DNA of 64,000 nt from Paramecium tetraurelia. Taxonomy: Eukaryota; Ciliophora; Oligohymenophorea; Peniculida; Parameciidae. Made by a program: the position numbers and the translations under genes. The notes under the pieces were generated by a model. It saw only the letters and a program-made list of their open reading frames with translations. It was not told the origin of the DNA and made no database searches. Within the stretch, counting starts at the first letter, position 1. Each line of letters opens with the position of its first letter. The stretch covers positions 314,728 to 378,727 of the forward strand of contig NW_001799189.1 in NCBI RefSeq assembly GCF_000165425.1, written 5' to 3'. Below are positions 19,759 through 49,292 of the stretch, piece after piece.

Positions 19759-19875
19759 ATTTTTTTTGATTTTATTAATTGATGATGTATTTGCTTTAAG
19801 GACTTATTATTGTAGTTAATTAATTAAATGTTGATTTAATAAAGACTGCCCATTATCTAATATAATGATTACAAA

Positions 19876-20195
19876 TCATTTTTAAACAGTTAATGGTTGA
19901 TGAATAACTATCTCACCGAAATTTAATTTATAGATTGTCTCAAAGAAGTAAGCAATTAAGTTGGGATGCTCAGCAAAGAAAAGGCTTAATTTAATTAAGA
20001 GTAGCTGGCTTAAATAAACACCATCAATCAAAAAGTAATTTTACTAACTTACTTTCTTTTTGGTTACCACATTATTTATGTGGAGAAATAATATTTCGTG
20101 TATGCTCTCTATAAGTAATTTTTGCTTATCATCATTAAGATAAGCAATAAGAATTGTGATCAATTACTTTCAATTACATCTTCCTCCCATCCCAT
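19876..20195 (-). CDS. small unknown ORF, head-to-head with BEACH gene
   Basis: A TGA-free frame of about 90 codons with balanced, charged composition (LIAYLNDDKQKLLIESIHEI, FFAEHPNLIAYFFETIYKL). A possible first exon MGWEEDVIES starts at 20195 or 20190, but I could not find a splice that joins it to the main frame. The start would lie only about 30 bp from the BEACH start on the opposite strand. It may be a real small gene, a remnant, or a shadow. Confidence 0.35.
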
Positions 20196-20226
20196 ATGTA
20201 AGTCTATATTTTTTGAATGCGTCATT

Positions 20227-26735
<6,509 letters not shown>

Positions 26736-26797: not shown

Positions 26798-29700
26798 ATG
26801 GGTAATAAATTGTAAGGGAGAGAAGCCATATCATATAAATTGAAAAGTGGAAAAGTATTTGAAATACAAGTCAATGATCTTTAAGGAGGCAAGAAATTTC
26901 CAAAGCCTCCCAAGAGAGAGGACATTATATTAAAATATAATCAATGGCTATCAGAAGTTTATCTCAATTATATATATTAGGTTATTTTGGAAGAGTCAGA
27001 TATTAAACTCTTGTAGACAGTTGAATCGAAGTATAAATTTCGTATTTGCTACCTTCATGAATAAATAATGGAAAAAATCAACATATAGAAAAAAGAAGAA
27101 TTTTAGACTAATCAGATTTTTATTGATTAATTAAAAAAAAGTATTAATAGATTATACGAGGATTATAATGATGTGGATATAAGCAGTAATATCTTAAACC
27201 ATTCTCATAGGCATTAGTAAAAGTCTTTCGAATTCTAGTTGTATTGATCAAAAAGTAGAGCTAATTAAAAATATGAATTTCATCTCCTATTTAGCAGATA
27301 GATTGATACTTTTAGAAGAGACATCTAGAATTACAAATAATTTTAGAGATCAAATTAGAATATTAGAACTCTATTAAGTTATCTTGAACACATACAATAT
27401 TAATCATAAGTCCCTATTTCATGAATCTAAATGTTTTAAATCAGTCATTCAAAATTTTCATCCAGTTGAACCTAAAGTAACTGGTTTAGTTTTCAAAATT
27501 ATAGCAGGATAAAATGGATTAAGTTGGAAAGAAAATAACTTTCAAAATATCTAAGATGCCTTACAAAATCTGTAAGATCTTTATGCATTTTAAAATAAGT
27601 AATCCATATTTATATTATTAGATTCTAAATATTTCTTAGAACAATGTATTATACAAAAAATCTTATAATGATCTATTAAATTATAAAGTTTCTCTTTCGA
27701 TATTTGTATTCATTAGATGATAAAAACTAATTATAAGTTGCAACTGAACTCTACACTTCAAAAGTAAACGATAAATAGTTAGAGGATGTTTTTAAGTAAA
27801 TTAAACTTAGAATAAAACTGGATCTATATAAAAAAGAAGATTGTACTTATGAATCAGTTAGAAACATACTTACTACTTTTGAACATCCATTGATTTCCTA
27901 TAACTAAGATGATCCGAGATTGACAAAACAATTTGCTTCATTTGTAGAGACAATTGTTGATGATAAAATGAATTACGAAAGTGATTATGACTCTTCCCAA
28001 AATATTTAGGATATCAATTTTTTATAAGATTAGTATTTTTACTATGAGGAGGGTTAGGAACATGTGTTCAAAGCCATAAAATAATCAGTTATAGAATGGA
28101 TTGATGCAATCTAAAATATAAGTCTACTATCTTTAAAGGAGGATGAGGTCGATTAGTTTTTCTTGGAAAATGAGAAGACATAGCATTATGCATTTATTGG
28201 AGAAAAGGATATCAACTCTTCTAATTAGGCACTTTCTAAAACACCCAAGAATGATCGTTCTGAACAAGAAGATTAGAATGTGGAATAGAAAAACTATAAA
28301 AGCAAATACAAAGAAGCAAAAGAAATAATTAATGAATTAAGAAATCAATTAGATTAATAAACAAATCAACATTATCTAAAACTATAAGAACTGTCAGTTT
28401 AAAATTAGAAATTAAATGAAGAGAATGGCTAAACTATAAAAAAATTATAAGAATAAATTAAACAACTCTAAAAAGAAATCCAAGATTATAAAACACTGGT
28501 GGCTTAAGAGGATTAAAAATCAATTTAAGTTTAATTAAATTAATCTAATATCCCTATGAAACAATAAAAAGATTCACAAACATAAAATACTCAAGATTCT
28601 TAAAAATAATAAACTCCACCACCACCACCACCACCACCACCACCACCTCCACCTGTATAATAAACTGGAACATCTCTTCCTCCACCACCACCTCCTCCAC
28701 CTATTTAAACAACAGGTGGACCACCTCCTCCTCCTCCTCCTATGAGATCTAACAATTAATAACCATAACAATTACTTAGAAAATAATAGCCTGCCCCATC
28801 CAAACCTATGAAACCACTTTTTTGGACTGCTATTCCGGATTCCAAAGCTTTCAAATCAATTTTTGAAAAAATCTAAAATGATGATATTACTTTGGATACA
28901 TAATTTTTAGAAATGAACTTTTGTAAACCTCAAGAAATATAAAAATAAACAGATAATTCAGTGGAAGTTAATGTTAAAAAATAAAAAATTAAGCTTTTAT
29001 AACCAGAAAGATCTCAAAATATTGAAATTATTCTGAGCAAATTACGTTTAAATATTAATTCTTTTTCTGATTCATTACTTTAAATAAATCTAGAAGTTTT
29101 AACCGAAAATGTAATAAACTCCTTAATTGCAATTTGTCCTTCCTAAGAGGAAATTGAATTATTGAATGAATTTACAGGAGATAAATCATTATTAGGGTAA
29201 TCTGAATTATTTATTGATGCTCTACGTAAAATCAATGGTTTTCAATTCAGAATCAAAGCATTGCATTTCATGTATAATTATCATGACAATAAATCAACAT
29301 TTCTAAAGGAGGCAAACAAATTGACTGAAGCTTTTATAAATTTGAAGAATTCCTAAGAGCTATAGACTGTTATTTTGATTGTTTTGAGATTGGGTAATTT
29401 TCTTAATGGTAATTTAACATTTAATAATTAGCAAAGACTCCAAAAGGAAACATTGCAGCATTTAAACTAGAAGCAATTGAAAAGTGTGGTGATTTGAAAA
29501 GCGTCGATAATTAATAGAATCTTTTATACTATGTAATCGAAAAATCAGAGTAGATTTTAAATAAAGATTTCATAAATTAATAAAGTAATGTTCGCTTTCT
29601 ATTTTAGTTATTACCTAATTCGAAATTATTGAAAAAATTTCTTTATCATAACTTCAACAAAGCTTAAATGACATTAAAAAAGGCCAAAATCTAATTGTCC

Positions 29701-30682: not shown

Positions 30683-30976
30683 TCATGAGATTTAACACAA
30701 GCAATCGTCCACTGGATCTCTTTCTTTAACATTAAATGTTTTCCAGTTTACAACCTCATATATATCAGCCAACCCAGCTTCTGGATTGATTTCATCTCTA
30801 AAACTGATTTTATGGTTTTTGGTTTTTGCTTTAATCTCAACATTATATTTGTCAGTTCTCTATTTTGTTTCTTATTACTTAGCACTTATTTCTGTACACA
30901 TTCTTTCAAACCAGAGGTTAATATCTTATTCTTATTCAATCTCATCATCCCCTGTACATTTTTATATTCTAATCAT
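30683..30976 (-). CDS. small CaaX-box protein with RVxF-like motif (paralog A)
   Basis: A single-exon protein of 97 residues. The N-terminal half is charged and probably helical (DINLWFERMCTEISAKQQE). The C-terminal half carries KNHKISFRDEI, then YEVVNWKTFNV, and ends DDCLCQIS. The final CQIS fits a CaaX prenylation box, with a second cysteine two residues upstream that could be palmitoylated. HKISF fits the RVxF class of protein-phosphatase-1 docking motifs (K-I-S-F). The same ordered blocks recur in the 78-residue protein at 46203-46439, so the two are paralogs. Predicted to be a membrane-tethered regulator; this is inference. No known family name comes to mind. Confidence 0.7.
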
Positions 30977-31174
30977 TATAAATTAAATTAATGTTATTAT
31001 GTCAACAATTCATTAAAAATAAATCAATAAAATGTTGATTATAATAACATTTACACCTAAGCTTTATAAAGAAAGTTGTTTGAGAATGATAACATTTAGT
31101 TGCTATTATCAAATATATAATCATTATTATTTTAACGAACAACAATAAATATTATTTGGCTAAACAATTTATGA

Positions 31175-31489
31175 ATGCAATACTAAATTGCAATATTGCC
31201 TATTTAGATTCTTCTTAGCAAGAGCCCAAAGATTTACCAAAATGAACAAAATTATAAATTAGGTTTATACCGAACTAAAGTTCTTCAATAAAACCCAGAA
31301 GTTTATTTTACATTTGTTTTCAACTAAAATATTTACTATCATTTATATTTCTTGTCTTTTAAAAGGAAAGTATATCAATATTTCAATTTTGATATCAAGA
31401 GGGTAATCTCTAGTAAAATCTTAAAGCCAAAAGCATGTAATCAAGATAGACAAATATTTTTGGTTAAGGAAATGAAATCTCATCAGTGA
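31175..31489 (+). CDS. candidate small ORF
   Basis: A 104-codon TGA-free frame, start MQYQIAILPIQILLS, then aromatic-rich segments (NPEVYFTFVFNQNIYYHLYF) and KACNQDRQIFLVKEM before TGA. Composition is plausible for a protein, but the length is not significant by itself in a one-stop code. It lies in the 0.7-kb gap before the GAF-domain gene. Confidence 0.28.
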
Positions 31490-31688
31490 ACAGGAAATAA
31501 TGGAAATACAGAATGATTTACTATAGAACTGATCATAAGATTAGATTTCAAATTACAGCTTAGTATTAATTAGTAAGGTTGTTCTTTTTTAAGGAATAAT
31601 AATTTTTATAACCTAAAATTACATGTAAACTTAAAATTCAGAAATATAGCCAAACAATTATTTTGATTTGATAAGTGTTCCACCCTCA

Positions 31689-33920
31689 ATGAGAAAAAAA
31701 AGTGCAAGAGTAGATTAAAGGCCAATTCAAACTAGCAAAATGTATTTTGAATCAGATTCTAATATTGATAAGTAAGTATGATGATTAGGGTCAAGCACAT
31801 AATCTTTGCATAGTCTATTACAATAGAAAGAGGCTTAATTAGATTCATTACAGAGGAAATACATGTAAATTAGATAGGTAAAGTCAAGAAAGCCTTAAGG
31901 ACAAAATTTTATGCATGGATATTTAGATGACTTGATTAATTCATTCAAAGATAAGGTTGACAACAATATCATCAGCGAGTTTATAAACTATTCAAATTCA
32001 ATGAATGATATCTATAGGATATAATAAACTCATTTACAACTTTGCTAGTAAAGGTTGTAACAAGCAGATGCATTGGTTGATTAGCTCAAAATACTTAAAG
32101 AAGCAGATCTCTTCAATCTAAAAAAGATAATTTAATCTTTATAAGAATCATTGTAATAAGCTTAAGTTACAGAATTAGATTCAAATAAATTGTATAGGGA
32201 TCTTTAGAACATGAAGTTGAAGTATGCAAAATTGCAAAACCAATTTGAAATAGTACAAAGGTAGAATGAATATACTGAAAAAAATATGCAATCGATAAAG
32301 TAGCATCTATAGCATACAAACGAGGAAACTCAAATTTATAAGAAGACTTTAAGAAAAGAAACTAGTTAGAATTAATTAAACCAAAGAAGAGTTTTTACAT
32401 TAGAATAAAGATTGGAGGTTTTAAGTGGGAGTGATTATAAAAAAGTAGTTCTATTGATATTATTTTAGGACAAAGACTCATTAAGAAATATTATAGAGGA
32501 TATGCTGAAAGAGAACGAGGCAAACAAAAGAAAGGCATTCTAAAAATGTCAAGAAGTGTTAAAGCTGGAATAAGTTGTTTAAGACTTAAAAGAAAAGAAT
32601 CAAAAGCTACAGAAGAGAAATATGTTGTTGGAGAAACAATTAAAATTGCTAGGGTATTCAGCTTATGATTTAAATGGAAACACTTTTGGACAAAAGACTA
32701 TAGTAGAATCCAATGATCAAGATGATGAGATTTAGGATGTATTTCAGCAGGCTAACTTGCCTAATAAATTAGAATTTAAATTAAATAATTTGAAATCGAG
32801 ACAAAAGAATTTAGTTTAAGACTTATTAGATTGTGGTGTTAAATAAGCAATCGATTAATTATTCTAGATGGATTAGTAGCATCAAGTGGATTAAATTAGT
32901 ATCTTTATGGATTTGTTTGTATAGTATAAGAATTTAGGAGAGAGTGTGAATAGTTTAATTAATTTAATTAAGCAGCTATTGAAAATTGATTAGATTGAAA
33001 TAATAATGCAAAGACTGAGTTCTGATTCTTAGTTATTTAATTGTGAGTTGATTCAATTATGGTTGATAGATTAATAGACTGCCACATTTTATACTTATAA
33101 TTAAAAAAATGAATTGGTCAATGCATATATTGATACGGATGAATTTTTGAATGTCGTTAAATCATCATTGCCTATTTATAAATAATAAGCATTTGTTTAC
33201 AGAAACATTAATACTGCTAAATTCGCAAAGGATTGCTATCTTATACCTTTGTTAACTGATAGTAGATTGATTGGAATTATATCGTTGGAAAATCTAAATA
33301 ATAAAAAATAGGATGCTAAATATCTTGGTTTGTTGATTTCATAATTGTTATTGCCGATAATAGATAAGGTATTGTAATTTAAACTTATAAATTATCAATT
33401 GAGATACAAAAATCTCTTATTTGAAGCATTTACTGAATTATCAAAGTAAAAGTCAAAATTTAAATTATAAAAATCAATTGAAAGTCAAGCTGAAACACTA
33501 TTTGGTGTGGCCAGCAGCAGATTTTTCTTTTATAGTTAAGGGATCATTTATACTTATAAGGATGACTTACATACAACTGAATATAGCTCAGATATAGGAG
33601 TAATTGGTTATGTAGCAAAATCTCAAGAGGCATTGCTACTTGGCAATATTAAACAGCATCATTCATTTCATTAATCAGTCGACATGATTAGTGGATTACC
33701 AATATTTACATTGCCCTTGGCCTTTGGTGTTTTGTAGATTGTATTGAATTAGAGTGCACAATTATAATAAAATAGTAATGCATCCAATATATTCTAATTA
33801 GATAAATCAATTGAAGTTCGTAAGTTATTACAACCTGGGGAAACTTTACAGAGCATGGCATTAATGTTCACATAAATTTGTAATTTCGCATATGAAATTC
33901 TAAAAATAGAATTATCATGA
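31689..33920 (+). CDS. coiled-coil GAF-domain protein
   Basis: 735 residues with one 24-nt intron near 31770 that ends AAG. The first 330 residues are hydrophilic and coiled-coil-forming (DLKEKNQKLQKRNMLLEKQL). A GAF-like region follows from about residue 430: LSSDSQLFNCELIQLWLID, FYTYNQKNELVNAYIDTDE, FAKDCYLIPLLTDSRLIGII and SLENLNNKKQDAKYLGLLIS. This order of strand-loop-strand elements is typical of GAF domains that bind cyclic nucleotides or small ligands. A second, weaker GAF-like half (FGVASSRFFFYSQGIIYTYK, GVIGYVAKSQEALLLGNI) follows. No catalytic domain is attached, so it is probably a ligand-sensing scaffold. Ends close to the convergent cathepsin-like gene. Confidence 0.75.
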
Positions 33921-34019
33921 TACATTAAATAATAAAATTGACATTTTTCATAAAAATTTTATTAGATAGAACAATCTTATTAATATAAAATTAACAATAA
34001 TGTAAACAATATGTTATAC

Positions 34020-35172
34020 TCATTCTGCACTTTTTTCGGTAGAAGCTGCTACGATTGGAGCAACTGAGTATGCTTCTAATTGTAATTAGTTTTGTCCTAA
34101 AAATATAACTAATTTGAATACCAACAGCAACATAGGCTAATCCTTTCAATCCCCAACTGTCTCCCCAAGAATTTTCAATGACCCAATAGTTGACTCCGTC
34201 TTATTTACCCCAACCAATAACTTTGACTGCATGTCCATATTGGAATCTAATTATTTAATAGATAAGTATACTTTGAACTTCCTTCGACAACTTCATAGAC
34301 TCCTCCTTTGTAAACAAGGAAATCTTTGAAGACTTAGATGACAGCAACAATTGGACCATTGTTCAATATTTCTCTTTTGATGTTTTCCTCACCTGAGACA
34401 ACACAGTAATCATGGATCTTATATTTTTCACAATTTGAGAAAAGAGCATCACAATTGTTTTTGGCATCTTCTGTTCCACTGTATGGTAAACATGAGGTTG
34501 AAACAAATCCTTGTTTCTTACCAACTTCCAAGACTCTTGTTACACTACCTCCTCCACATTTGTAGTTCTTGTCATCACATGAGATTGGGGATTATGGTGA
34601 CAATTGGTCTTAGAATTCTCCATTCTTTGATTTGCATAATCTATCACTTGTGGCTGATACTGCAGCAATTGAATAACTGGATGAGCAATTTCCTATACAT
34701 ATTTACAATTATTAATACCCTAGAAGTAGATTGGTTATGCACATTCTGGTTAGGCTTCTCTGAAATTGTAGCTCTCTGGAATTATGACACCGCTTTCAGG
34801 GCATTGTTAGATTTTTCCTTTGAATGTTAAATGATTGTTGAAAATGAATTTGGCATCACTGAATTTCCAATCTTTGAAGAAATCATTTGGACCTTAGAGG
34901 TAGGATCCTAAAGAATTGTGTGCAGCTATTTCCTCTTCATCTATTACAGGAGCTGTCGTTAATTTCTTGCTAGATCGTGTCAAAATGGAAAACAAAGCAT
35001 AGACACAAACAAATCCGAATGCTCCTATGACCAAATGATAGGCGTATTTATCGAAAAAGCTTGGCTATGTTTGGTTACGTCTTTTCATAGCTTAAGCTGC
35101 TTTCTCTCTTTAGGCTACCTTTTCTGGAGATTAGGGAGAGGGACTTCTCTATCTTTGAGACACTTAACTCAT
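34020..35172 (-). CDS. membrane-anchored papain-family protein with Ser at the catalytic Cys
   Basis: 358 residues with three introns (26, 25, 25 nt; spliced length divisible by three). The N-terminus is cytosolic and basic (AQREKAAQAMKRRNQ), then one hydrophobic helix (HLVIGAFGFVCVYALFSIL), then a peptidase C1 domain. The oxyanion-hole/active-site block reads QGNCSSSYSIAAVSATSDR, where papain and cathepsin B have QG-x-CGSCW: the catalytic cysteine is serine and the following Trp is Tyr. The histidine (GHAVKVIGWG) and asparagine (VIENSWGDSWG) motifs are intact, as are typical cysteines (CGGGSVTRVLEVGKKQGF). It could be a serine-type variant like the Plasmodium SERA proteins, or an inactive pseudoprotease. 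The type II anchor is unusual for this family, whose members normally have a cleaved signal peptide. Confidence 0.9.
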
Positions 35173-35246
35173 GTATTAATTTAATTATTCAACACGTTTT
35201 ATTAATTAAATTATATATATACTTTAAAATAACATATTTAATTAAG

Positions 35247-36325
35247 TCATAAGAAGAATGCATGCTCTAGGGCTTAACGTGCATTTATTCTTAATTTCTA
35301 TGCAAATTAGATTAAATAAATACGTGATCATAAACAAAGATCTTTTCCAACAGATCAATCGCATCTTTGGTTGCCCATCTCTTGTTCTTTTTATTCACCA
35401 ATTACTTGAAATCTATTCTCTCTTCAACTTAAGGAATATCTTACAAACGTAATTTAATATGATATTTTTTCAGATATTCATATAAATCCTTCTTTCCCAA
35501 TTTCTAAATTATTTGTCTTAATTAATCTTTTAGATCCTTCCCTTTAAACAAGGGATCAGTCTTGAATATAAAATCAGCCAACATGCATCCAACAGCCCAA
35601 ACATCAATTGAGTAATCATATTTCCTATATTTCAATAATAGCTCTGGTGCTTTATAGTATCTAGTACCCATTCTGACGGATAAAATTTTTCCACTGTCAT
35701 AAAATTGACTTAAACCCCAATCTATTAATATAATATTATCATTTTGATCTACAAGTACATTTTCAACTTTAATATCCCTATGCATTATATGTAAATCATG
35801 AGCCTAAACAAGGGCACTGAATATTTACTTAAAGTATTTTTTTACTTATTTTAAAGTGTACCTTCTTTTTTTAAGGATATGATATAAATTACGAGTTGTA
35901 TTTTGGTAAGTAAATATTATAGTGGTATCAAGAGAATCATTATGATGGGGGGGATCTTATTTAGCTTATATTGCTTAAGTCTCCTTATTTAAGAGTTATT
36001 AGTAATAGTCAGCCTATTCAACTTAATGTCCCTTGATAGCATCTATCATTTGAACGATATTGGGCAAACCTATTAAGGCTTACAGAATTTATATCTCTTG
36101 ATTGATATCGCTCTCTCTGGTGTCATTGATGTGTTTTAAAACAACCAGCTCTTAATCTTGAATTCTTTATGCTAAGTAAACCTTAGAAAAGGCACCTTCT
36201 CCTATCACTTATTTTAATTCATAATCAAAAATGTTTCCAGAATTGTAATCCAATATTTAATTGACTTCATCAGAATTGAGTTATTATTATTATTGATATG
36301 TAAAAGCAAAGATTTGAAGTGGCAT
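35247..36325 (-). CDS. casein kinase 2 alpha-like protein kinase
   Basis: 350 residues with one 26-nt intron near the 3' end; the intron is required to join the C-lobe helix to LRINARQALEHAFF. The kinase domain has a glycine loop GEGAFSKVY, the VAIK-equivalent ELVVLKHI, catalytic loop MHRDIKVENVLVD, and the CK2-typical DWG in place of DFG (LIDWGLSQFYDSGK). TRYYKAPELLLKY and DYSIDVWAVGCMLADFIF follow. Classical CK2 alpha has HRDVKPHN and a basic substrate patch; here both are altered and a hydrophilic insert (KQDPPHHNDSLD) sits between C-lobe elements, so it is a divergent paralog. CK2 phosphorylates acidic sites. It is transcribed away from the GSK3-like gene, with a RING remnant between them. 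Confidence 0.88.
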
Positions 36326-36394
36326 GAGAAGGAAAAACAAGATCATAATAAAAAAACGTATTTTTTTAAATATTGCTTAAAAACCAAAATAAAT

Positions 36395-36691
36395 TCACAA
36401 TATTTTAGAATCACTCTATTCTTTATTACAAAGTGGGCAAGTATTACTTTATTTCAATCATCCGTCAATTCAAATTTTATGTAATCCATGATCACATAAT
36501 CTTTGGACTATTTTACACTAAAGGAGTAAATTCAGAATTTTTATAACTCTTCTAAAATTTGATTGGCTTCACACACCAAACATTTTCCAAGAGACTTTAT
36601 TTATCAATAGCGCATCTATCTTCTTTAATATATTATGTCCAAACTCAAGCAGCTTGCAAAGATTTGATTTCTATGCTATTATCTATTCCAT
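36395..36691 (-). pseudogene. RING-H2 finger gene remnant
   Basis: Pieces of a C3H2C3 RING finger are visible in broken order. One frame gives GKCLVCEANQILEELQKF (first metal pair). A neighbouring frame gives LCDHGLHKI, then a TGA at 36470-36472, then IDG, a TGA at 36458-36460, then LKQSNTCPLCNKEQ. In RING-H2 domains the positions of these two TGAs are Cys and Trp (H-x2-C-I-x2-W-L). A third TGA ends the first frame and no tiny intron joins the two frames. TGA is a stop in every other gene of this window, so I read it as a decayed E3-ligase-type gene. It sits in the 380 bp between the CK2-like and GSK3-like starts. Confidence 0.6.
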
Positions 36692-36704
36692 TAATTAAAA
36701 TAAT

Positions 36705-37792
36705 ATGAAAAATAGTGAGAATCTATAGAGCTACGCAGTTGAAAAAAGAATTGGAGAAGGTGCATTTGCAATAGTGTAAATCTCAGATCATATGAAAGAT
36801 ATTTAGCTTAGGTACAAGAGAGTGGAGAGAAAGTTGCAATAAAAAAAGCTCCAATAGACAAAAAATATAAAAACAGAGAGCTGGCGAACTTAAAATTACT
36901 TGGAGAACATCCAAACATTGTCGCCTTAAAAGATGCATTCTATGTTGTTGGTTAAAAGTACAAATTCTATACATTATATTCAACTTAGTGAGGAAGTCTA
37001 CATTAATTATGTGATGGAATATATGCCAGACAATTTATCTGATTATTTGAGAAATATGAAGAAGCAGAAACAATAGTTAACATAGATTCAATTACAGATC
37101 ATAACGTATCAACTATTGCGTGGTTTGGCCTTCATACATGGCAAGGGCATGGCACATAGAGACATCAAACCTCAGAACATTTTAATTGATGGAACAATCG
37201 TAAAATATTGTGATTTCGGATCTGCTAAAATCATTTCAGGTGGATAGATCAACACTTCCTATTTATGTTCCAGACATTATAGGGCACCTGAATTGATATT
37301 TGGAGCCACTGATTATTCTACGAGTATAGATATTTGGTCTTTGGGATGTGTCTTTGCTGAACTCATTTTATTGGAACCGCTATTTCCTGGTGAAAGTTCT
37401 GTTGATCAATTAGTGGAAATTATGAAGGTCTTAGGGACTCCAACAGCTACTGATATTGCAGAATTCAATGCATCTAATACAGATTTTAAATTTCCTTAGG
37501 TCAAAGGACATCCATGGTCTAAAGTCTTTTTAAAATATAAACCTGATCCCCAATTCATTGACTTAATTAAGAAGATGGTTACGTATTAATTTTCATCAAT
37601 GCTAGTTACTAACCTTAACAGAGAATCAAACCATTTATGGCTTTGATGCATCCATTCTTTAATGATCTGAGAGAGTTAAAGAATGAGGAGGTTCCGAATA
37701 AACTTTGGTAATTCACGCCTGAAGAGGAGAACATTTTTGGAAAACAGCCATTAAAACATTTGATGCCATCATGGTGGAAAGGTGGAAGATGA
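36705..37792 (+). CDS. GSK3/shaggy-like protein kinase
   Basis: 336 residues after removing introns of 23, 31 and 23 nt (divisible by three). The sequence shows the glycine loop [14 protein letters not shown], the catalytic lysine in [25 protein letters not shown], the hinge [10 protein letters not shown], catalytic loop [19 protein letters not shown], and the activation segment [20 protein letters not shown]. The last is diagnostic of GSK3, where the tyrosine of CSRYYRAPE is normally phosphorylated; here one Tyr is His (CSRHYRAPE). C-terminal helices include [17 protein letters not shown]3 kinases act in developmental and ciliary signalling on primed substrates. The first intron ends AAG. 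Confidence 0.92.
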
Positions 37793-37877
37793 TAATGATT
37801 ATTTTAATACTGTAAAAAACAAATCTCTTTCAATTAATTGAAATTATTTTGTTATTAAAGAATTAATTATTATTTTC

Positions 37878-38480
37878 ATGGATCAACAAATTAAGAAAGT
37901 GTTTCATACGGCTTTGGTCTTAGTTCCTCCAAAGCAATGTATAGATTAAATATAACTCCTAAGGAAACAATACGATAAAGCGTACGAAAGATGGATGCCT
38001 CATGTCAATTTGTGTTTTCCATTTGCAGATCCTGCTTAATTTTAATAAGTTTTCCAAGCACTTTAAAATCATCTGAGTAAGAAAATATAACATTTCAAAC
38101 TAGAGGACTTTCCTGCTTTTTAAGTTCGGTTAAGAGAATTTAATCATTTTCAACATGGCAAAAATTGTGTAATGTGGTTAAACCCAGAATCTGAGAATGA
38201 TGGAATCTAAAAGTTATACTAAGAAATCTTAAAGGTCTATCCCTAATTGGATGATCTAAATAAAAAATCAGAACATGGGTTTCAACCTCATATAACAATT
38301 GGATAGTTCGGAACAAATCAGATTGAATAGAGAAAAAAAGCATTCCAACCTTAATTTTAGGAAGTTCAATTTCAATGTTAAGAGATACACATGATTAGTA
38401 GGAATGGGTAAGATGACCCATTTTAAATAATTCATACCATCAAGTAAGTTAGTGATCTGATCATTTAGATTCAAGACTGA
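37878..38480 (+). CDS. 2H phosphoesterase (LigT / RNA 2'-5' ligase-like)
   Basis: 200 residues, single exon. Two H-x-(N/T)-h motifs, the hallmark of the 2H superfamily, appear as MPHVNLCFPF near residue 38 and QPHITIGQFG near residue 140; each histidine would supply general acid or base chemistry on 2',3'-cyclic phosphates or related bonds. The stretch CVMWLNPESENDGIQKLYQE is the usual central strand and helix. No fused domain. The GNAT gene starts 60 bp downstream on the same strand; a functional link is possible but unproven. Substrate unknown. Confidence 0.82.
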
Positions 38481-38539
38481 GAATCCATAAGCTTATGAAT
38501 ATCCAGGTCAAAAATGAATATAAATAATTATTATATTAT

Positions 38540-39537
38540 ATGTAAGGGTCTGAGATTTTAATTGCTCAAGCACAGCATAAAACTGAATTAGTTCATCAGT
38601 TGTAGGAGCAAGCTTATGAAACAGAATAAAAATAATTGGATAACAATCTAGTGACAAAGGCAATTGAGTACATTTTGGAGAACCCTCATTTTGGCTTTTT
38701 TTTAATTTATACCGAAAATCATCACGTCTTCGGGTAGATCCTGATGACCAAAGAATACAACATCTACTCTGGATTAACTTGCTGGTTTCAATCTGTAATA
38801 TTATGAATTCAACCATTTTAGGTTTACGTGAAGAAGGATCATAGAATGAAGGGAATATTTAAGTAAATGTACAAGGAATTTATGAAATATGCAGCAAAGG
38901 AGAAAGCAGGGACAAAATTATATGTAGAAGTTGAGAATAAGAATGCCATCAAAGTATATGAGAAATTGGGAATGATTAAAACAGAGGAAACCATATTTGA
39001 AGATGATTTCGTATTTCATCCTGTTAAGTAAGTCAAATTGCTTATCAAATTAGAATTATTAATCTTGGTTAAGATTGTGTAACAAGGACTTCAAGCAACA
39101 AAAAGGAATTAGAGGACTTATTAAAGAAAGGAAAAAGTATCTTAGGGAATGACTTAACTCAATAATTGTAAATTGAGAATTGTTTAAATAATAACAAAAA
39201 TGCATTTATAATAACAGAGAGTTCAACAGACTATCTGATAGGACTATATTTCATCGAATTTAGTGATTGGAGAAATGGAGTATTAATTAATTAATAAAAT
39301 TAGATAATTCTATGGTTTTACGATTTTGTAAGTTCAACTTATAATAATGGAATTATTAGTATAATGATGAGCAATATGCTGAATTCGATTAAGCATAAAT
39401 AGGTTAAGTTTAATCCTGAAGTGAAAGGAATTAGAATACTTGTAGACAGATCTAAAGGTTAGCGGTTAGAGTAATTATTGGAAGTCATTGGTCTAAAGGA
39501 GTCACACTATTATATATATTATTAAAAAAGTGATTGA
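38540..39537 (+). CDS. double GNAT acetyltransferase
   Basis: 314 residues with introns of 27 and 26 nt. The first GNAT domain (residues about 40-160) reads ENPHFGFFLIYTENHHVFGQ, then the acetyl-CoA-binding V-x(n)-R-x-x-G/A segment as YVKKDHRMKGIFKQMYKEF, and the C-terminal strand-helix LYVEVENKNAIKVYEKLGM, all classic motifs A and B. The second half (AFIITESSTDYLIGLYFIEF to LEQLLEVIGLKESHYYI) follows the same fold order but lacks a good R/Q-x-x-G-x-A/G loop, so it looks like a catalytically dead copy, as in other double-GNAT enzymes. The start MQGSEILIAQ uses TAA as the second codon. Substrate unknown. Confidence 0.75.
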
Positions 39538-39622
39538 AATGAGCAAGTATTTTAAATAAATAAAGTAACATGATTTCCATAATCAATTATTTAAGAAATT
39601 TAATTCGAATTTATTATTAAAA

Positions 39623-41567
39623 ATGTCAGAATAACAAAAGAACTTGGAACCTCCTCAAGAATAACCAGATCAAGAACAATCACTCTTGTAACAAGCTCTA
39701 GAGAATAGATAGGTTTTTGATTCGGAAATTTAATAATAAATTCAGAAAGATGCTTTTGACTTTAAGATGGAAGTCAATAATAAAGAAGAAGACTTAGGAA
39801 TGATGAAGAGAGATATAATCAAGAAGAGGAAGAAGAGGGAAAAGAAAGAGAAATTGATATCTGCAAGAAGATTAAAACGATTGCTGAAAAAGAAACCTGT
39901 TGATAAGATTAGATTAGTTTACTAAGCTTATTTCTTTATAGTTAGTATTACCGTACTCACCCTAAGTATATTGTCATACAGAGATCAAACAGTTTATGAA
40001 GGAGATTATCAGTAATTCGTTGACAATGTTAATTCCTATGTAATTGATGATATTCAATTCACATATACTAATAAAAATTGCAAAACTCAGTTCGGAAGTC
40101 AAGTATGCAATTTTTCATATCATAGTATTCGTCCCTTTATGAATACCATTGGCCAGGTACTAAGATTGGATGTGATTGTAGTAAAGGATTTAATTTCTCT
40201 TCATTAACAGAATTTAATATTGATGCGTTTTTCAGTGAATCCTTTATGCTTGGCCGTATTTGCAGTTAAGACTTGCTCTCTAAGAATTGTAATACAGTGA
40301 ACGAACAGCAACCTAAAATCTTTAACTCATGGAATGATGGATCATATGGAAGACGTACTGTCATGCTTCAATTTTATTAGCCTTTGTATTGTGTGCCAGA
40401 AGATAACTTGGAATTGATTTACAATCTAACTAAACCAATTGTCAATCCGATCATAAAGTCTGTGGAACTGGTGATAATTCATTTTGCGTCCCCTCCGATA
40501 TCAGTTGTCCTATATCAGAAATTGGATTTACTACAAATTCAAATTATTAAAATTTATCATTAAAAAACGATACAAATATAGGGAATATTTTTGATTTGGG
40601 ATCAGGATTCTATTTTTATTATATCAAAAACACTTCAAGTTTACCAATTGTAGAATTTAGAGTTACTGAAGGAGACAAGGTATGTAGAAGGAATTTAGAT
40701 CAAAATATTTCACCAAACCGAATAGATTATCCTTTAATGGTATCAATGAGAAAATAATGCGAAAATACTGACTAACTCTTCTAAGTAATCCATTCTATCG
40801 ATGAAGAGTAATTTTATCTTTCCAATAATGTAATTTATTTATCTGAAAAATTACCTTATTTTAACATTGATACCAAATATAATTGGACACTTCATGCTAA
40901 AACTTTTATTCCTTGGGCACCTCAATGTCGAGGAGAGTTATTTGATTAGGTTCTACAAGAAGGAGCTAATTTGCATCATGTTTACATATCTTTAAGAGTT
41001 TAACTAGGAGTTACTATTGCCTATTTTATTGTTATTGGCCTTATTTTTAATGTTGTTGGAACGATGACTGCTTGCAACTTTGCTTGGTCTTGTATGGCAA
41101 GTAATAAATTATTATTTATCATTATAGCTAGGCCTGATTCATAATATAATTATATTTTCCTAATTGAAGTTGGATTCAAAATACTATTATAAATAACTGA
41201 GATAATTGTTATAATAGTCTCTTTTGCTATCATAGATGGCAAAAGAAAGATAATTAAATAAATTAATGATGATGGATGTGTATCTGATCCTGTTAGTGGC
41301 TATTTCTTTACTAATTTGGAAAGCGATTTAACTAAATTTGCTTGGTCTTACAATCTAGCCAATTTAGTGATATTCACAGTTACTCTTATTCTTGATCTAA
41401 TCATAATTAAACACTCAATTAATTAAGGACATCATCATGGAGCAAAAAAACACCATGAAAAAGGAGAGCATTAAGAATTAGATGTTGGATCAAATGGTGA
41501 ATCAGGAAATTAGTAAGAAATTAAAAGTGATGTAAAACTCTAAGCTAAGTCAGAGCCTCAAGTATGA
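39623..41567 (+). CDS. four-pass membrane protein with large cysteine-rich ectodomain
   Basis: About 620-628 residues. A long cytosolic N-terminus with a basic cluster (KKRKKREKKEKL) leads to TM1 (AYFFIVSITVLTLSILSY). A large ectodomain with many cysteines and N-glycosylation sites follows (CDCSKGFNFSSL, CGTGDNSFCVPSDISCP). Then come three C-terminal helices: LGVTIAYFIVIGLIFNVVG, FKILLQITEIIVIIVSFAII and LANLVIFTVTLILDLIII. The tail is His/Lys/Glu-rich (HHHGAKKHHEKGEHQ). Introns of 32 nt (ending CAG, near 40126) and 26 nt (near 40355) are required; a further 27-nt one near 41102 is likely. The one-plus-three topology with a Cys-rich loop recalls ciliate transporter- or channel-like orphan families; I do not recognise it. 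Confidence 0.7.
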
Positions 41568-42383
41568 AATTATTTAACATCAAAATTATTATTAATTAAT
41601 TTCTAATTATCTATTTGTCAACATTAAATATTATTTTTGTTATATATTTTTGTTTATTAATATTATCAGTTATCTCATTTCTCGTGCTAAATATTCAAAT
41701 AATTCCTATTTGTCATTAAAACAAATTAGGTTGCATTAGTAAAAATTATCAGACTATATTCAAAATATAATAAGTTTTAATGAAAATATGCTTTGCTAAA
41801 ATTTATTGAAAAGAAGGTTTAAAGGTTAATAACTCAATTTCTATTATAGACATCAATAGTTACATGTTTTACAAGCAATAATTATGTATTTTTATGACCT
41901 ATTTATTTTGGTTTATTATTCGACAAAAATTGTTACTCAAGACTGAAGTTGATTAAATTTCAAAATTTAATTTCATAAACTAAAAATGATGTTACCAATA
42001 AAATAATTACTTTAAAAAGGTAGACTAATTTTTAGATAAGAAATAAATGACTTATTGTACAGATATGATAACAACTAGTTTGATAAATACAAAATTAATT
42101 CATTTACAAAATGATTTAAGGCAGATAATTTTAGTTTATTTATAATAAGCGAAATATTGAACATAATGTTCTGTTTTGATCCTTTCTGCTTTGGAACTAC
42201 AACAATATTTTAGATACAATCTTTATGTTTTCATAAGATTAATTATTTTGGCATAATAAATTATCATAAGAATTGTATTTAAGTGAATTAAATTAATTCA
42301 ACTTACATATAGAACTTTTAGATTTTTAGTTGAATAAAACCATAGAATATTTAAGATTGATAAATCTTAAAAGTACCTACTTA
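41568..42383. other. AT-rich intergenic DNA
   Basis: About 815 bp downstream of the membrane-protein gene. No frame with convincing composition was seen. Confidence 0.45.
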
Positions 42384-42539
42384 ATGAATACCTAATAAGT
42401 GTGTATAATAAGGCGTTTGAATGCAAAATTGAAAATCATAGGAACCATATGCTCATAGCATAAGAGAAAGATCCAATATCTGATTGAGTGTGGAAAGAGT
42501 TATACTCCTTAGATGATGAGGGAACTCTAAGGCGCATGA
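42384..42539 (+). CDS. candidate 51-residue basic miniprotein
   Basis: A short frame starting MNTQQVCIIRRLNAKLK and continuing IGTICSQHKRKIQYLIECG to TGA at 42539. It has a higher GC content and a more protein-like, basic composition than the surrounding DNA, and stops 90 bp before eL6. The DNA also contains a small inverted repeat (CCTTAGA / TCTAAGG at about 42508-42533), so a structured RNA or 5' element of eL6 is an alternative. Confidence 0.3.
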
Positions 42540-42629
42540 TGAAAAACAGGAAATGATATTGAACAAGAGATGAGTGATTTAGGATAATTAAATTTAAAAT
42601 TAGATTTAAAATTAATTAAAATACAATCA

Positions 42630-43249
42630 ATGCCTGCCAAAAAGAGAAGTGTGAGAATTGGTAATTGGTACAAAAGTGATGATGAGAAAGTCCATTTCGT
42701 TAGAAAGAGAAAAGTATTTTGAAATAAAATCAAAAAAGGCTCCAAGACCAGCTACATTGAGAAAGATTGTCCCCGGATAAGTGTTAATCTTGTTGTCTGG
42801 AAGATTCCAAGGAAAGAGAGTTGTATTCTTGAAGTAGCTCAAATCTGGATTGTTGCTTGTAACAGGTCCTTTCAAAATTAATGGTGTCCCTCTCAAGAGA
42901 GTCAACTCCGCTTATGTCATCCCAACATCCACTAAAGTTGATGTGACTGGAGTTAATGCCAACTAAATTAATGATGATTATTTCAAGAGAACTTAAGCTT
43001 AAAGACGTAAGAATGAATAAGGATTTTGGGCAAAGAGAGGAGAAGTAATTTAATATCCATATATATAATTAGCTCACAGTTGAATAATAAACAGCAGAAA
43101 AAACAAGATTGGATGGAAAGAGAAATACACAAAAATCAGTTGATGCTGCATTGATCACTGCAATTAAGAAAACATAATTATTGAAATAATATCTCGGTGC
43201 TCGTTTCACCATTGGAAAAACCACAAGACCTCACGAGTTAGTCTTTTGA
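42630..43249 (+). CDS. 60S ribosomal protein eL6
   Basis: 188 residues with introns of 25 nt (ending AAG, near 42700) and 28 nt (near 43051). The short basic N-terminus ([18 protein letters not shown]) precedes the conserved KOW-like core: [39 protein letters not shown] and [20 protein letters not shown]. The tail is basic and helical ([15 protein letters not shown]). This is a structural protein of the cytosolic large subunit. Codon usage is more biased (GCT, AGA, AAG) than in neighbours, as expected for a highly expressed gene. Confidence 0.95.
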
Positions 43250-44133
43250 TCATTACCAAGATATTATCGTACAATAATAAATATTATAAATCAATATATT
43301 AAATTCCACCTGTTTAATTATTTTTTACTCTCTCCTGTTAACTAATTACTTTATTCTCAATATGCTATCCCACATTTAAGATCTCCTCATATCCCCTAGA
43401 TACTTAATCTCTGGACTATTAATTAAATTAGTTATTTTTATGAGTTAGAGTAATAAATTACTATATTACAACTAATATTTGTATTTTTATAAGGATTTTA
43501 TAACTAATTTATTTATTTTATTTTAGAATTCACTACCTTTAGTTTATTTTCACTACTATATATTAGAACTCCAATTTATATCGTCATAACATCAAAGAAA
43601 AACTTAACAAATTTTCTCATATTAAGTATTGAGTTTTAGATGAATTATTTCAATGTTTATTACTTTATAATATATGTCTTGTTTTGTGATTATAGTAAAT
43701 CTATAGTTTCATTGTTAAGGCTAATTTCTATGTTACTTTTTTTAATGTTTATAACGTGTTATTAAATTACATATATCTAACTCTAAGAAAATAAAATATT
43801 TCTAGAATTTGAAATAATCCAAAGATTGCAACAACATAAATTATTAAAAAATTAAAGGATGGTTTTAATTTATCTGGCTTAATATTAGATTTTTGCATTT
43901 CCACAAATATATATTTTATATTTCCTAGATTGTCGATTCTTATTTTAAATTCTTAATTTTATACTTTTCTTGAATGAATTTTTAGAATAATTTCAACTAG
44001 GTTGTTAATAAAATTGAGTGACTATTAGGATTGATTACTTTATCTGCTAATAAATATACATTTATATGTAATATAAAGATTATATCCAATTTTACAAGAA
44101 TAGTTCATAAAATTTAATATGAATACTATAAAA
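43250..44133. other. AT-rich gap between convergent genes
   Basis: About 880 bp between the eL6 stop and the tubulin-like stop; nothing coding was recognised. Confidence 0.45.
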
Positions 44134-45133
44134 TCATTAATATGCTGCAACAATCTGATTGAGACTTTCATTCACCTCGTAATCAATATTAAAAAACTAT
44201 TTTGGAACTTATTAAAATTTATTGATGGTTTTTGCCAATATATTCACATTACTGCTATGGTTACTTATCTAAGCAATTCCAGGATAGGCTTTCTCAAGAA
44301 TGCCCATGTAAGAAGGAACTTAGGTGATTTCTTAGACCCACTTGACCTATTCTAAATTGGGTTCTCCTCTTATAATTAATCCTGTTCTATTGAATTTTCC
44401 TTCCTAATAATTAATACCTCCAAAATTATTAGAAAAAGCATTAACATAAGTGTAATCAAAACCACATGACAAAAACTTTTAATCGTAGTCTAAAAATAGA
44501 TGTTAGGAGAATGTTGTCAAATCTAATTCTTTCTTATAAGATTGATTAATTGTAGCCAAACAAAAACTTAAGAATTATGAAATATTTCTTGGAGGATAGG
44601 ATGTATATTATTTATTGTCCAAAAATACACTTCCATTGATCTACAAGCACACCTCTGCAAATTCTTTCAGCATTTCATAGCATTTTAGTAAACTTAATTG
44701 CTAAGAATATGATATTTAATCTTCAATCAAATTCACAAAATAAAATGGAACAGTAGGTATCAATTATTATTATTCTTTGATGTAATCGTCGTAATTTTAA
44801 TTTGTTGTATTAATAACAAGGACTCCTTGTAGATTTTCACATTTCTCAACCATCTATCTGAATGAGGAAAACTATCAGATATATAAAATTACGTACATTC
44901 TATTTTGCATATATTTTCTTCTTTTGAAATTGTGAATCAGAATCAACGAATACAGTTTTAGGAACAAATTGGCCATTTTAAGTTTCATAATAAAATGATT
45001 TGGCTAAGAAATCTGATTCCTTGTTTAAGAGATTCAAATCCTGTATTAGATTTTCAGTGGCCAATTATTCTTGCAAATGATCTCCTATAATGCCCCCATT
45101 CCAACCCAAGTTGAGTATGATTATTTCCTTCAT
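44134..45133 (-). CDS. divergent tubulin-superfamily protein
   Basis: 324 residues with one 25-nt intron. The N-terminus KEIIILNLGWNGGIIGDHL mirrors the tubulin opening (E-I-I-x-I-x-x-G-Q-x-G-N-Q-I-G), followed by QFVPKTVFVDSDSQ in the place of the FVDLEP strand. After the intron KCENLQGVLVIN matches the tubulin strand that leads to GGGTGSG, but the glycine loop itself is replaced by TTNQNYDD. The C-terminal part (ISNHSSNVNILAKTINKF then VNESLNQIVAAYQ) follows the tubulin pattern of an N-S-T-containing strand and final helix. At 324 residues it is about 100 short of alpha/beta tubulin. It probably cannot bind GTP normally. Ciliates carry several rare tubulins; I cannot say which, and a Misato-like relative is an alternative. 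Confidence 0.55.
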
Positions 45134-45248
45134 TTCTTTATTTTATATATTAATGAATTAGTTAATTATATGAGACCAATAATTTGGAATAAATTATTAA
45201 AAGATTTATTTAGTATTTTGAAATGGGAAAATTGTAAGCAATTGTAAT

Positions 45249-45758
45249 ATGGCTAGCTTGAAACCAGGTCGTTTAGTAGTTATGCTTGCCGGTAGATAAG
45301 CTGGAAAGAAGGCTATTTTGATTAAAGCAAATGAAGAATCAACTAAAGTAAATCAAATGTGGATTTATTTTAGGATGCAAAATTCCCTAATGGTTTAGTG
45401 GTTGGTATCTAGAGATATCCCAGAAAGGTAACCAAGAGAATGGGTTAAAAGCAAATCAGAAAGCGAACTACATTGAAGGTGTTCATTAAATAATTAAATC
45501 TTAATCACATTATGCCAACAAGGTAATGATTATATACAATTTTATTTTAGATATAGATTAGAGGAATCAACATTGAAGGAAGTCAGAGACAGAATTGAGA
45601 GAGTTAAGGAAGCTGAATTAAAGAATGTTGAAAAAAGAAAAGAATTGAGAAAGAATCTTAGAAAATACTTAGCTGAGAAATACAGAACATTACCAGCAGG
45701 TAGTTTGGCTGATAAGAAAGCTTAATCAAGATTCCTATTCTCAAAATTGAGATTCTGA
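45249..45758 (+). CDS. 60S ribosomal protein eL27
   Basis: 151 residues with introns of 26 nt (near 45348) and 28 nt (near 45524). The KOW-type N-terminus MASLKPGRLVVMLAGRQAGK is followed by GLVVGIQRYPRKVTKRMGQK and LNHIMPTRYRLEESTLK, and the closing SRFLFSKLRF is the signature C-terminus of eL27. Component of the cytosolic large subunit. Divergently oriented from the tubulin-like gene, with about 115 bp shared upstream DNA. Confidence 0.96.
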
Positions 45759-46202
45759 TATAATAAAGTATAATATAAAATATATTTATTATTGTAATTC
45801 TTTATCTCATACATATATCTATTTAAATTATTTATTTTTCAATAAAAACATATGAACAATTATATTTTGATGAGTAATATGAAACTTAACCTTTATTTTC
45901 TAGTGTTTCTTGGATTTTCACTGAATCTACCTATTGAAGCAGATGTAACTCGAAAGGTAATTACAAGATTGTAAAAAAAATTAAAGCAAAAACACTCATA
46001 TATATTAGAAAAGTAGATAACATATTTCAAAGATTTTTGCTTTAAATATTAAATCAAAATTTTGAGTTGGTTCTGTAGTGATTTAAAGCAATTATCATTT
46101 TAAATTTTATGAAGATATTCATGAAGATCATATTCTTAAATGGGGGGGAAGATGAAAATCCAAAATTTGACTGATATTTAAAATAAAATATATTATACTT
46201 AT
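45759..46202. other. AT-rich intergenic DNA
   Basis: About 440 bp between eL27 and the second CaaX miniprotein. A G8 run at about 46143 stands out in otherwise AT-rich DNA; no gene seen. Confidence 0.45.
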
Positions 46203-46439
46203 ATGAACCAAAAGTCAAAAAAGGTGCATGCGGATTCTCAAATAGAACTAAAATCTAAGAATCCTTAAAGATAGATACGCGTGGATACTTTTGGATAGCA
46301 AATTTTGAAAGGATAAAAAAATCATAAAATTGCATTCAAGGAACATATCAAAACAATTCACATAGTAGAAAATTGGAAATTGTACAATCTTGATCATGTG
46401 GATAAGGAAGATGATTCTTGTCCATGTTAATTAGTTTGA
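46203..46439 (+). CDS. small CaaX-box protein with RVxF-like motif (paralog B)
   Basis: 78 residues, single exon. The lysine-rich N-terminus (MNQKSKKVHADSQIELKSKN) is unrelated in sequence to paralog A. The C-terminal half shares the ordered blocks KNHKIAFKEHI, HIVENWKLYNL and DDSCPCQLV with paralog A at 30683-30976. The last four residues CQLV fit a CaaX box, with a cysteine two residues upstream, and KIAF fits the RVxF phosphatase-docking pattern. The likely picture is a lipid-anchored adaptor or phosphatase regulator; nothing beyond the motifs supports this. Confidence 0.7.
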
Positions 46440-48458: not shown

Positions 48459-49292
48459 ATGAAAGTACCATCTTTGGAAGGAGAAATGTTTATGACAGCA
48501 GTATATGCTCCGAGTGCCAGAGCCTCTTGCAGAAGCTGTTAGGCTAAAATAGCCAAAGATGAACTTAGATTAAGCAATATTGTGGATGAAGATCATTATC
48601 ACCAACAACTTCATTACCATGCAGATTGTTTCTAATTAAAACCAGATTTTAAGAATGCAACCTATAAAGATATCTTTCATGTAGAAAATTTAACAAAGGC
48701 AGATCAAGAAAAAGTCAAGGCTATTCTTGAAAAACTACAAAAAATGGAATACAAAAAGAAACCTTAATAAAAAAAAGCTAATTCAAAATCTAAGAATAAC
48801 AAATAAAAAAAAAGTGAACTGGAAGATGGTGGCGATAGTGGGGATGATAACAAAAAAACCAAGAAATAGAGGAAAGAGGTAGCAAAAAAGGATAAAAAAT
48901 TAGAGACTACCAAAAAAGCAGAATCATATGAAAGTCAGAGTGATGAAGATGAGCCTGGCATCCTTGTACTTTATGATAAGCCATAAAAGGAGGAATTCAG
49001 GAAGATCCAATAAGATTTAGAGAAAAAGACAGCAGGTTAATTGAAGTCGATGCTAAAAGCGAATGATCAAACATAAATGGGAAATAAAGCAGAACTTATT
49101 GAGAGAATCGCTGACTGTATGATTAAGGGATGTTTAGAGAAATGTCCCAATTGCTCTGGAGGAAGACCAAAATTTAATCCAACGTAGAAAGTCTTCAAAT
49201 GTCCAGGATACATGGATGACACAGAATTTAGATTTTGCAATAAAGTTTATGGGCCAAAAGATCTCAAGAGAATTCCCTGGGTTGATGTTTGA
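48459..49292 (+). CDS. PARP-type zinc finger + PADR1 protein without catalytic domain
   Basis: 277 residues, single exon. Residues about 15-62 form a PARP-type finger: YAPSARASCRSCQAKIAKDE then LHYHADCFQL (C-x2-C...H-x2-C). A lysine/glutamate-rich linker follows. A PADR1/SAP-like zinc module begins KSMLKANDQTQMGNKAEL, continues RIADCMIKGCLEKCPNCSGG, and ends FKCPGYMDDTEFRFCN. In PARP1 these elements recognise DNA breaks and relay the signal to the ADP-ribosyltransferase domain, but no WGR or catalytic domain follows before TGA. It could be a DNA-damage adaptor or a nick-binding protein; the plant APE2/DNA ligase style of single PARP finger is another precedent. Confidence 0.87.

Follow-up and report, generated by a model that had tools for sequence, protein, structure and literature searches.

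Why should a ciliate genome carry two short genes whose products have the same core and the same tail, and what could these products bind? The genes, here called A and B, lie in a 64,000-nucleotide stretch of Paramecium tetraurelia DNA (contig NW_001799189.1, positions 314,728 to 378,727 of the forward strand), which is referred to as the window. All open reading frames (ORFs) were read with NCBI genetic code 6, in which TAA and TAG encode Gln and TGA is the stop codon. An earlier note on this DNA had described A and B as an unlinked pair of paralogues, and had suggested that they belong to an undescribed family of lipid-anchored phosphatase adaptors. Both ORFs are present with the positions, strands and lengths that it gave, and so are the sequence blocks on which it built its comparison: KNHKISF, VVNWKTFN and DDCLCQIS in gene A, and KNHKIAF, VENWKLYN and DDSCPCQLV in gene B. 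The genes are not unlinked, as both are found on one contig (C157) with about 15.2 kb between them, and they are not just a pair, but two of at least 48 copies. On balance, we lean towards the view that A and B belong to a large ciliate family of short, mostly disordered proteins, predicted to be anchored by lipids and to serve as membrane tethers for protein phosphatase 1 (PP1).

Size and conservation of the family

The homologue search covered the 69 Mb genome to which the window belongs, and so a single ciliate. With the two full proteins as queries, 16 and 35 matches were obtained, and 20 at a looser cut-off. Together, these represent 36 distinct places, once 14 of the first 50 loci had been discarded as duplicate fetches. 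Two consensus queries were made to end at the WKxYN block, without the tail, in order to avoid favouring the CaaX box. They matched 45 and 33 places, and the union comprises 48 loci, among them all 36 earlier places. The number is a lower bound, and the family thus has at least 48 loci in this genome. Further homologues with conserved terminal cysteines were found in number, and the outcome that the earlier note had named as fatal to the idea, a lack of either, did not arise. A weak 49th place (C156:397837-397923, expectation value E 0.029) was not counted among the 48; with it, the tail would be kept in 48 of 49. The locus around it (L103, C156:397680-398100) has retained the VENWK string KNYIKLIHVVENWK, lacks both the Phe of the RVxF-like motif and the CaaX box, and is perhaps the relic of a gene-B-like copy.

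The proteins encoded by genes A and B are 35% identical over 69 aligned residues (E 8e-11). The closest paralogue of gene A, L002, is 70% identical to it, and the closest paralogue of gene B is L010. A tree of the 48 members (80 columns), in which 23 of 45 inner branches are resolved, likewise groups gene A with L002-L005 and gene B with L010. On contig C156, about 15.0 kb separates the closest paralogues of A and B, and a joint duplication of the two genes as one block is therefore probable. Paired blocks of paralogues, genetic code 6, a G+C content of 23-33% and an intron of 25 nt are in keeping with Paramecium. The comparison with L010 also bears on the start of gene B. An in-frame ATG at 46140 would lead to a product of 99 aa, but L010 lacks an in-frame Met upstream of the matching one, and 46203 is therefore the better start.

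The ratio of nonsynonymous to synonymous substitution rates (dN/dS) was determined over the last 75 codons for the 20 nearest pairs; eight further loci were left without an unpaired partner at or above 50% identity. It amounts to 0.04-0.33 in the 18 pairs with measurable dS (0.19 for gene A and L002, 0.15 for gene B and L010), and dS is saturated in the other two. The family is under purifying selection.

Searches for known domains returned little. In Pfam, neither window protein has a family above the cut-off (best E 0.069 for gene A, no match for gene B). A scan of 36 of the 48 members, to which 12 were added later, gave weak and scattered matches only, the best of them to a holin family in two members (E 0.0015), and none to ankyrin, GTPase or Inhibitor families. 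An AlphaFold model based on the family alignment has one helix at residues 16-34, a mean predicted local distance difference test score of 64.4 and a predicted template modelling score of 0.22. On these scores, a folded domain was rejected. The protein modelled in this way appears to be largely disordered, as expected of a disordered PP1 regulator. Among the titles listed in searches of open-licence PubMed Central papers, none names such a family, which is apparently undescribed.

The C-terminal CaaX tail

Both window proteins had been said to end in a CaaX box preceded by another Cys, and this arrangement extends to the entire family. A Cys is present at position -4 in 47 of 48 unspliced frames, and in all 48 once an inferred intron is removed from L086. 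A second Cys occurs 1-5 residues before it (positions -9 to -5) in every member. L086 (C41:65980-66380), which alone among the 48 needs splicing, contains a GT..AG intron of 25 nt between the RVxF-like motif and the VENWK block. The script that was used to find it retained only solutions ending in C-x-x-x; VENWKQYN, on which no such condition was placed, was restored by the single solution as well.

The residue at position -2 is Ile in 33 members, Leu in nine, Thr in four, and Met and Val in one each. The last residue is more varied (I 12, F 11, S 10, Q 8, L 3, V 2, Y 2). As a rule, CaaX boxes that end in Ser or Gln fit farnesyltransferase, and those that end in Ile, Leu, Phe or Val fit geranylgeranyltransferase. 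Such tails are rare in the surrounding DNA: among 353 window ORFs of at least 60 aa, a Cys at -4 is found in nine and is accompanied by a second Cys in three, with genes A and B contributing two to either count. When the last 12 residues of the family members were shuffled 20,000 times, a Cys fell at -4 in 9.2 members on average and in 21 at most, compared with 48 observed, in a test that ignores kinship. The tail is nevertheless kept in all 27 representatives that are less than 60% identical to one another. The distance from the Phe of the RVxF-like motif to the CaaX Cys varies between 27 and 39 residues, while the Cys stays at -4. Its position is thus set by the C-terminus, which is what prenylation requires.

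To judge from these sequences, lipid anchoring is strongly supported. CaaX prenylation of the family proteins seems highly probable, and the neighbouring Cys is probably palmitoylated, which would amount to dual lipidation. In Ras- and Rho-type proteins with two lipids, a Cys likewise stands beside the CaaX box. The likeness ends there, as genes A and B have no GTPase domain. For the modification itself, a prenyltransferase is required, and the Prenyltransferase-beta profile matches four places in the genome and none in 14 controls.

The core region and its possible partner

In the 36-row alignment, three positions are invariant, namely the Ile of an ILK-like element, the Phe of a [VI]-x-F motif and the CaaX Cys. 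Nearly invariant are R-x-D, the second Cys and, within VENWKxYN, V, K and N. The motif around the Phe resembles the RVxF sites by which many proteins dock to PP1. [VIL]xF is in place in all 48 members, with Ser or Thr at its middle position in 31. The net charge of the eight residues before the motif is +2 or more in 47 of 48, and Asp or Glu occurs among the next four residues in 46; both hold in 45, although the procedure that picked the motif favoured such flanks. Basic residues before and acidic residues after the motif are described for RVxF sites in an excerpt of PMC3792071.

Upstream of the RVxF-like motif, an I[LIVM][RK] element is found in 34 of 48 members (QILK in gene B). The Ile at the ILK place has one fixed distance to the motif in 41 of 48, with five residues between ILK and RVxF. 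A strict SILK motif, [GS]IL[RK], N-terminal to the RVxF-like motif occurs in five of 48 proteins (L006, L007, L032, L033 and L034, from three lineages) when counted from the chosen Met. Shuffling predicts 0.37 such cases, none of 2000 shuffles reached five, and the rate in window ORFs would give 0.19. If start codons are ignored the count rises to six, with L083, where the motif lies upstream of the first Met. L006, L007 and L032 are degenerate at the position where ILK normally stands. The SILK of L033 and L034 aligns with that position, but the stretch from there to the Phe is five residues longer. As Inhibitor-3 and mouse Rif1 illustrate, SILK N-terminal to RVxF is a signature of PP1 binding. 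Extracts of the respective papers place LTIK at residues 28-31 and KVEW at 40-43 of Inhibitor-3, which binds PP1 through these and a CCC cluster (PMC10066265), and SILK at 2128-2131 and RVSF at 2150-2153 of mouse Rif1 (PMC5437018).

The genome also encodes the presumed partner. The string APNYCGEFDN is present in five of 12 phosphatase stretches that were fetched, which marks them as PP1 catalytic genes. In three of the five, the strand ETLMCSF, which we take to line the RVxF groove of PP1, can be read directly.

Downstream of the motif, a V..WK block was counted in 37 of 48 members, an undercount, because one IENWK was missed. L026, L037, L082, L050, L079-L081 and L083-L085 have kept the RVxF-like core and the CaaX box in the absence of VENWK, which is therefore not essential to the family.

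We consider PP1 docking by the family core likely. Of the phosphatase connection that the earlier note had proposed, a K/H-x-[IV]-x-F motif at a fixed place, its invariant Phe, the basic and acidic flanks and strict SILK in three lineages stand in favour, and the support is indirect. Several observations weigh against a membrane tether for PP1. The strict RVxF pattern, [RK]x(0,1)[VI]{P}[FW], is matched by 27 of 48 members (genes A and B included) and the relaxed one, [HKR]x[VIL]{P}[FW], by 41, and a simple RVxF pattern is found by chance in about 25% of proteins, according to a passage of PMC4794898. Gene A has no ILK. A short linker of fixed length is unlike what would be expected of two independent docking motifs, and the SILK-RVxF gap of five residues compares with eight in Inhibitor-3 (PMC10066265) and 18 in Rif1 (PMC5437018). 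Independent docking of SILK and RVxF in every member was thus ruled out, by the fixed spacing and by gene A. The VENWK block, missing from about ten members, has no PP1 role that could be cited. Among PDB sequences, the best match had E 0.98, a profile search peaked at E 0.46 with perakine reductase, and no PP1-bound peptide was matched. The CaaX methyltransferase ICMT, with matches at two places in the genome, is weak evidence of CaaX processing, since five of 14 prokaryote controls match too. Finally, KIAF, the very string of gene B, is found in mouse Rif1 outside the region to which PP1 binding has been mapped (PMC5437018), so that the string alone is no proof of PP1 binding.

A precedent for prenylated PP1 subunits exists in animals, where TIMAP (PPP1R16B) and MYPT3 (PPP1R16A) combine a PP1-binding motif with C-terminal CaaX prenylation and bring PP1 to the plasma membrane, as stated in an excerpt of PMC3560227. 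The order of the motifs, a PP1-type motif followed by CaaX, is alike. However, TIMAP and MYPT3 are long (TIMAP has 567 residues; PMC3560227) and contain ankyrin repeats, whereas the proteins described here have about 80-130 residues and no ankyrin match in the 36 scanned. At most, they might work like TIMAP and MYPT3. They do not belong to the same family, and the resemblance is one of motifs. A second comparison is with Inhibitor-3 (PPP1R11, PF07491), a PP1 binder that is likewise short and disordered, in which SILK precedes RVxF and Cys residues follow (PMC10066265). In contrast to it, the P. tetraurelia family has its Cys in a terminal CaaX box, and PF07491 is absent from the 19 families that the 36 scanned members matched at E<=1. 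Kinship with Inhibitor-3 or TIMAP was rejected on these two absences and on the location of the PF07491 matches elsewhere in the genome. Inhibitor-2 (PPP1R2) also has SILK N-terminal to RVxF (PMC10066265), but no Inhibitor-2 match was obtained for the 36 members in the Pfam scan, beyond which its inhibitory helix was not looked for.

The mode of action that we propose has three steps. The terminal CaaX box would very likely be prenylated, trimmed and methylated, and the adjacent Cys would probably receive a palmitoyl group, so that the protein would be held at a membrane. The H/K-x-[IV]-x-F core, with basic residues before and Asp or Glu after it, would then be likely to dock in PP1's RVxF groove. 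The ILK- or SILK-type element upstream would assist in this, and the hydrophobic V-E-N-W-K-x-Y-N block downstream might do so too. As a weaker suggestion, the variable N-termini might choose the membrane or the substrate, and a kinase might release PP1 by acting on the Ser or Thr in the middle of the RVxF-like motif. Tentatively, and with some doubt on our own part, one may go further and regard the proteins as at least 48 interchangeable, lipid-anchored addresses for PP1. They would have one docking core, different N-termini, a CaaX residue that selects farnesyl or geranylgeranyl, and often an RV[ST]F switch. Local PP1 activity, in cortex, cilia or vesicles, might then depend on which microprotein is present, and the family would take over the role that large multidomain targeting subunits have in animals.

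The tails could be prenylated and the core (R-x-D ... ILK-x-x-K-x-H-x-[IV]-x-F-x-D-E ... VENWK-x-YN) could still bind another partner, such as a ciliate membrane-skeleton or trafficking protein, with a coincidental likeness to RVxF. No single PP1 motif is as long as the conserved region, which takes in R-x-D and VENWK-x-YN, the spacing in its first half is fixed in 41 of 48 members, seven of 48 fail even the relaxed RVxF pattern, and RVxF-like strings are common by chance. This alternative nevertheless seems unlikely to us, though worth keeping in mind, because the most conserved core positions (Ile and Phe) are those that the SILK/RVxF assignment predicts, the flanking charges agree with RVxF, and strict SILK is over-represented. 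If PP1 is the partner, the proteins need not be targeting subunits. They could be membrane-bound inhibitors or competitors that fill the RVxF groove and shut PP1 off from other regulators or from its active site, which would suit their small size, the lack of a recognisable substrate-binding domain and the combination of RVxF with SILK that is reported for Inhibitor-2 and Inhibitor-3 (PMC10066265). We think this improbable, as no conserved inhibitory element common with either inhibitor was seen, and as prenylation best explains the tail.

Inhibitor-3, which has, besides SILK and RVxF, a Cys cluster with an inhibitory effect via the active-site metals (PMC10066265), might also suggest that the paired Cys residues coordinate these metals, without any lipid. 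This is very improbable, since all 48 members keep the Cys at -4 and an aliphatic-type residue at -2, while the distance of the Cys from RVxF varies over 27-39 residues. In Inhibitor-3, W43 and C60 are separated by 16 residues (from the numbering in PMC10066265). Moreover, the genome has separate Inhibitor-3 genes: PF07491 matches places on C53, C61 and C212, two of them above the cut-off and none among the 48 loci. These genes (L100, L101 and L102) are canonical, with the strings RSVQWTEDTVDNEN and CCIYHKP. Least probable of all is that the ORFs are only apparent and that the copies represent decayed or non-coding repeats. The ORFs are short, the genome is AT-rich and two stop codons are reassigned, and the weak place on C156 looks like a relic that has lost Phe and CaaX. 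However, the dN/dS values, together with the retained tails, refute decay for the 18 pairs tested. Chance ORFs were rejected on the tail background in window ORFs and on dN/dS.

To our knowledge, it is poorly mapped how PP1 is directed in single-celled eukaryotes that lack the animal set of targeting subunits. If membrane tethering of PP1 by this family is correct, the cell may use it to hold PP1 at membranes, and with at least 48 tiny lipid-anchored candidates, this ciliate would have one of the larger collections of proposed PP1 partners that are all of one type. PP1 addressing would be reducible to about 80 residues, in a family that is easy to test gene by gene. Even with a partner other than PP1, the sequences would point to an apparently undescribed, highly amplified family of prenylated microproteins under purifying selection, which deserves a name.

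Features of the two genes and their surroundings

Table 1. Genes A and B and their conserved parts, in window positions (position 1 is the first nucleotide of the window)
Feature	Positions	Strand	Basis
Gene A, 97 aa, C-terminal CLCQIS	30683..30976	-	ORF under code 6; paralogue L002; dN/dS
Gene A residues 40-51, RTDKYNVEIKAK: R-x-D and Ile at the SILK-like place (degenerate IKA, not ILK)	30824..30859	-	36-row alignments: R40 and D42 nearly invariant, I48 invariant
Gene A residues 55-59, HKISF, RVxF-like motif	30800..30814	-	fits strict [RK]x(0,1)[VI]{P}[FW]; F59 invariant among 36
Gene A residues 75-82, VVNWKTFN, V-x-N-W-K-x-[YF]-N block	30731..30754	-	V75, K79 and N82 nearly invariant among 36
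Gene A residues 92-97, CLCQIS: upstream Cys (possible palmitoylation site) and CaaX box CQIS	30686..30703	-	sequence
Gene B, 78 aa, C-terminal CPCQLV; alternative start 46140	46203..46439	+	ORF under code 6; paralogue L010; dN/dS
Gene B residues 34-36, ILK, SILK-like; 9 residues ahead of the RVxF-like Val/Ile	46302..46310	+	Ile at the same place in 41/48 members
Gene B residues 41-45, HKIAF, RVxF-like motif	46323..46337	+	sequence, family alignment
Gene B residues 55-62, VENWKLYN block	46365..46388	+	sequence, family alignment
Gene B residues 73-78, CPCQLV: upstream Cys and CaaX box CQLV	46419..46436	+	sequence

The window contains several other coding stretches. On the plus strand, 10865-18427 is an open frame of 2520 aa with a Cys-rich start and no Pfam match at E 0.001, which looks like a surface protein. 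It is followed by a run of overlapping ORFs (19828-25698, plus strand), the last of which (24883-25698) matches the BEACH domain with E 1.8e-69. The other ORFs of this run have no Pfam match and are not paralogues of one another, and the run probably represents the exons of one large BEACH gene. Adjoining gene A, 27644-29497 (plus strand) encodes a Formin homology 2 domain (E 1.5e-40). A protein kinase is encoded between the two family members at 35189-36346 on the minus strand (E 7.2e-45). Beyond gene B, both on the plus strand, 48459-49292 encodes a PARP-type zinc finger with PADR1 domains, and 52026-53693 matches the start of a PI3/PI4-kinase domain (E 2.1e-10).

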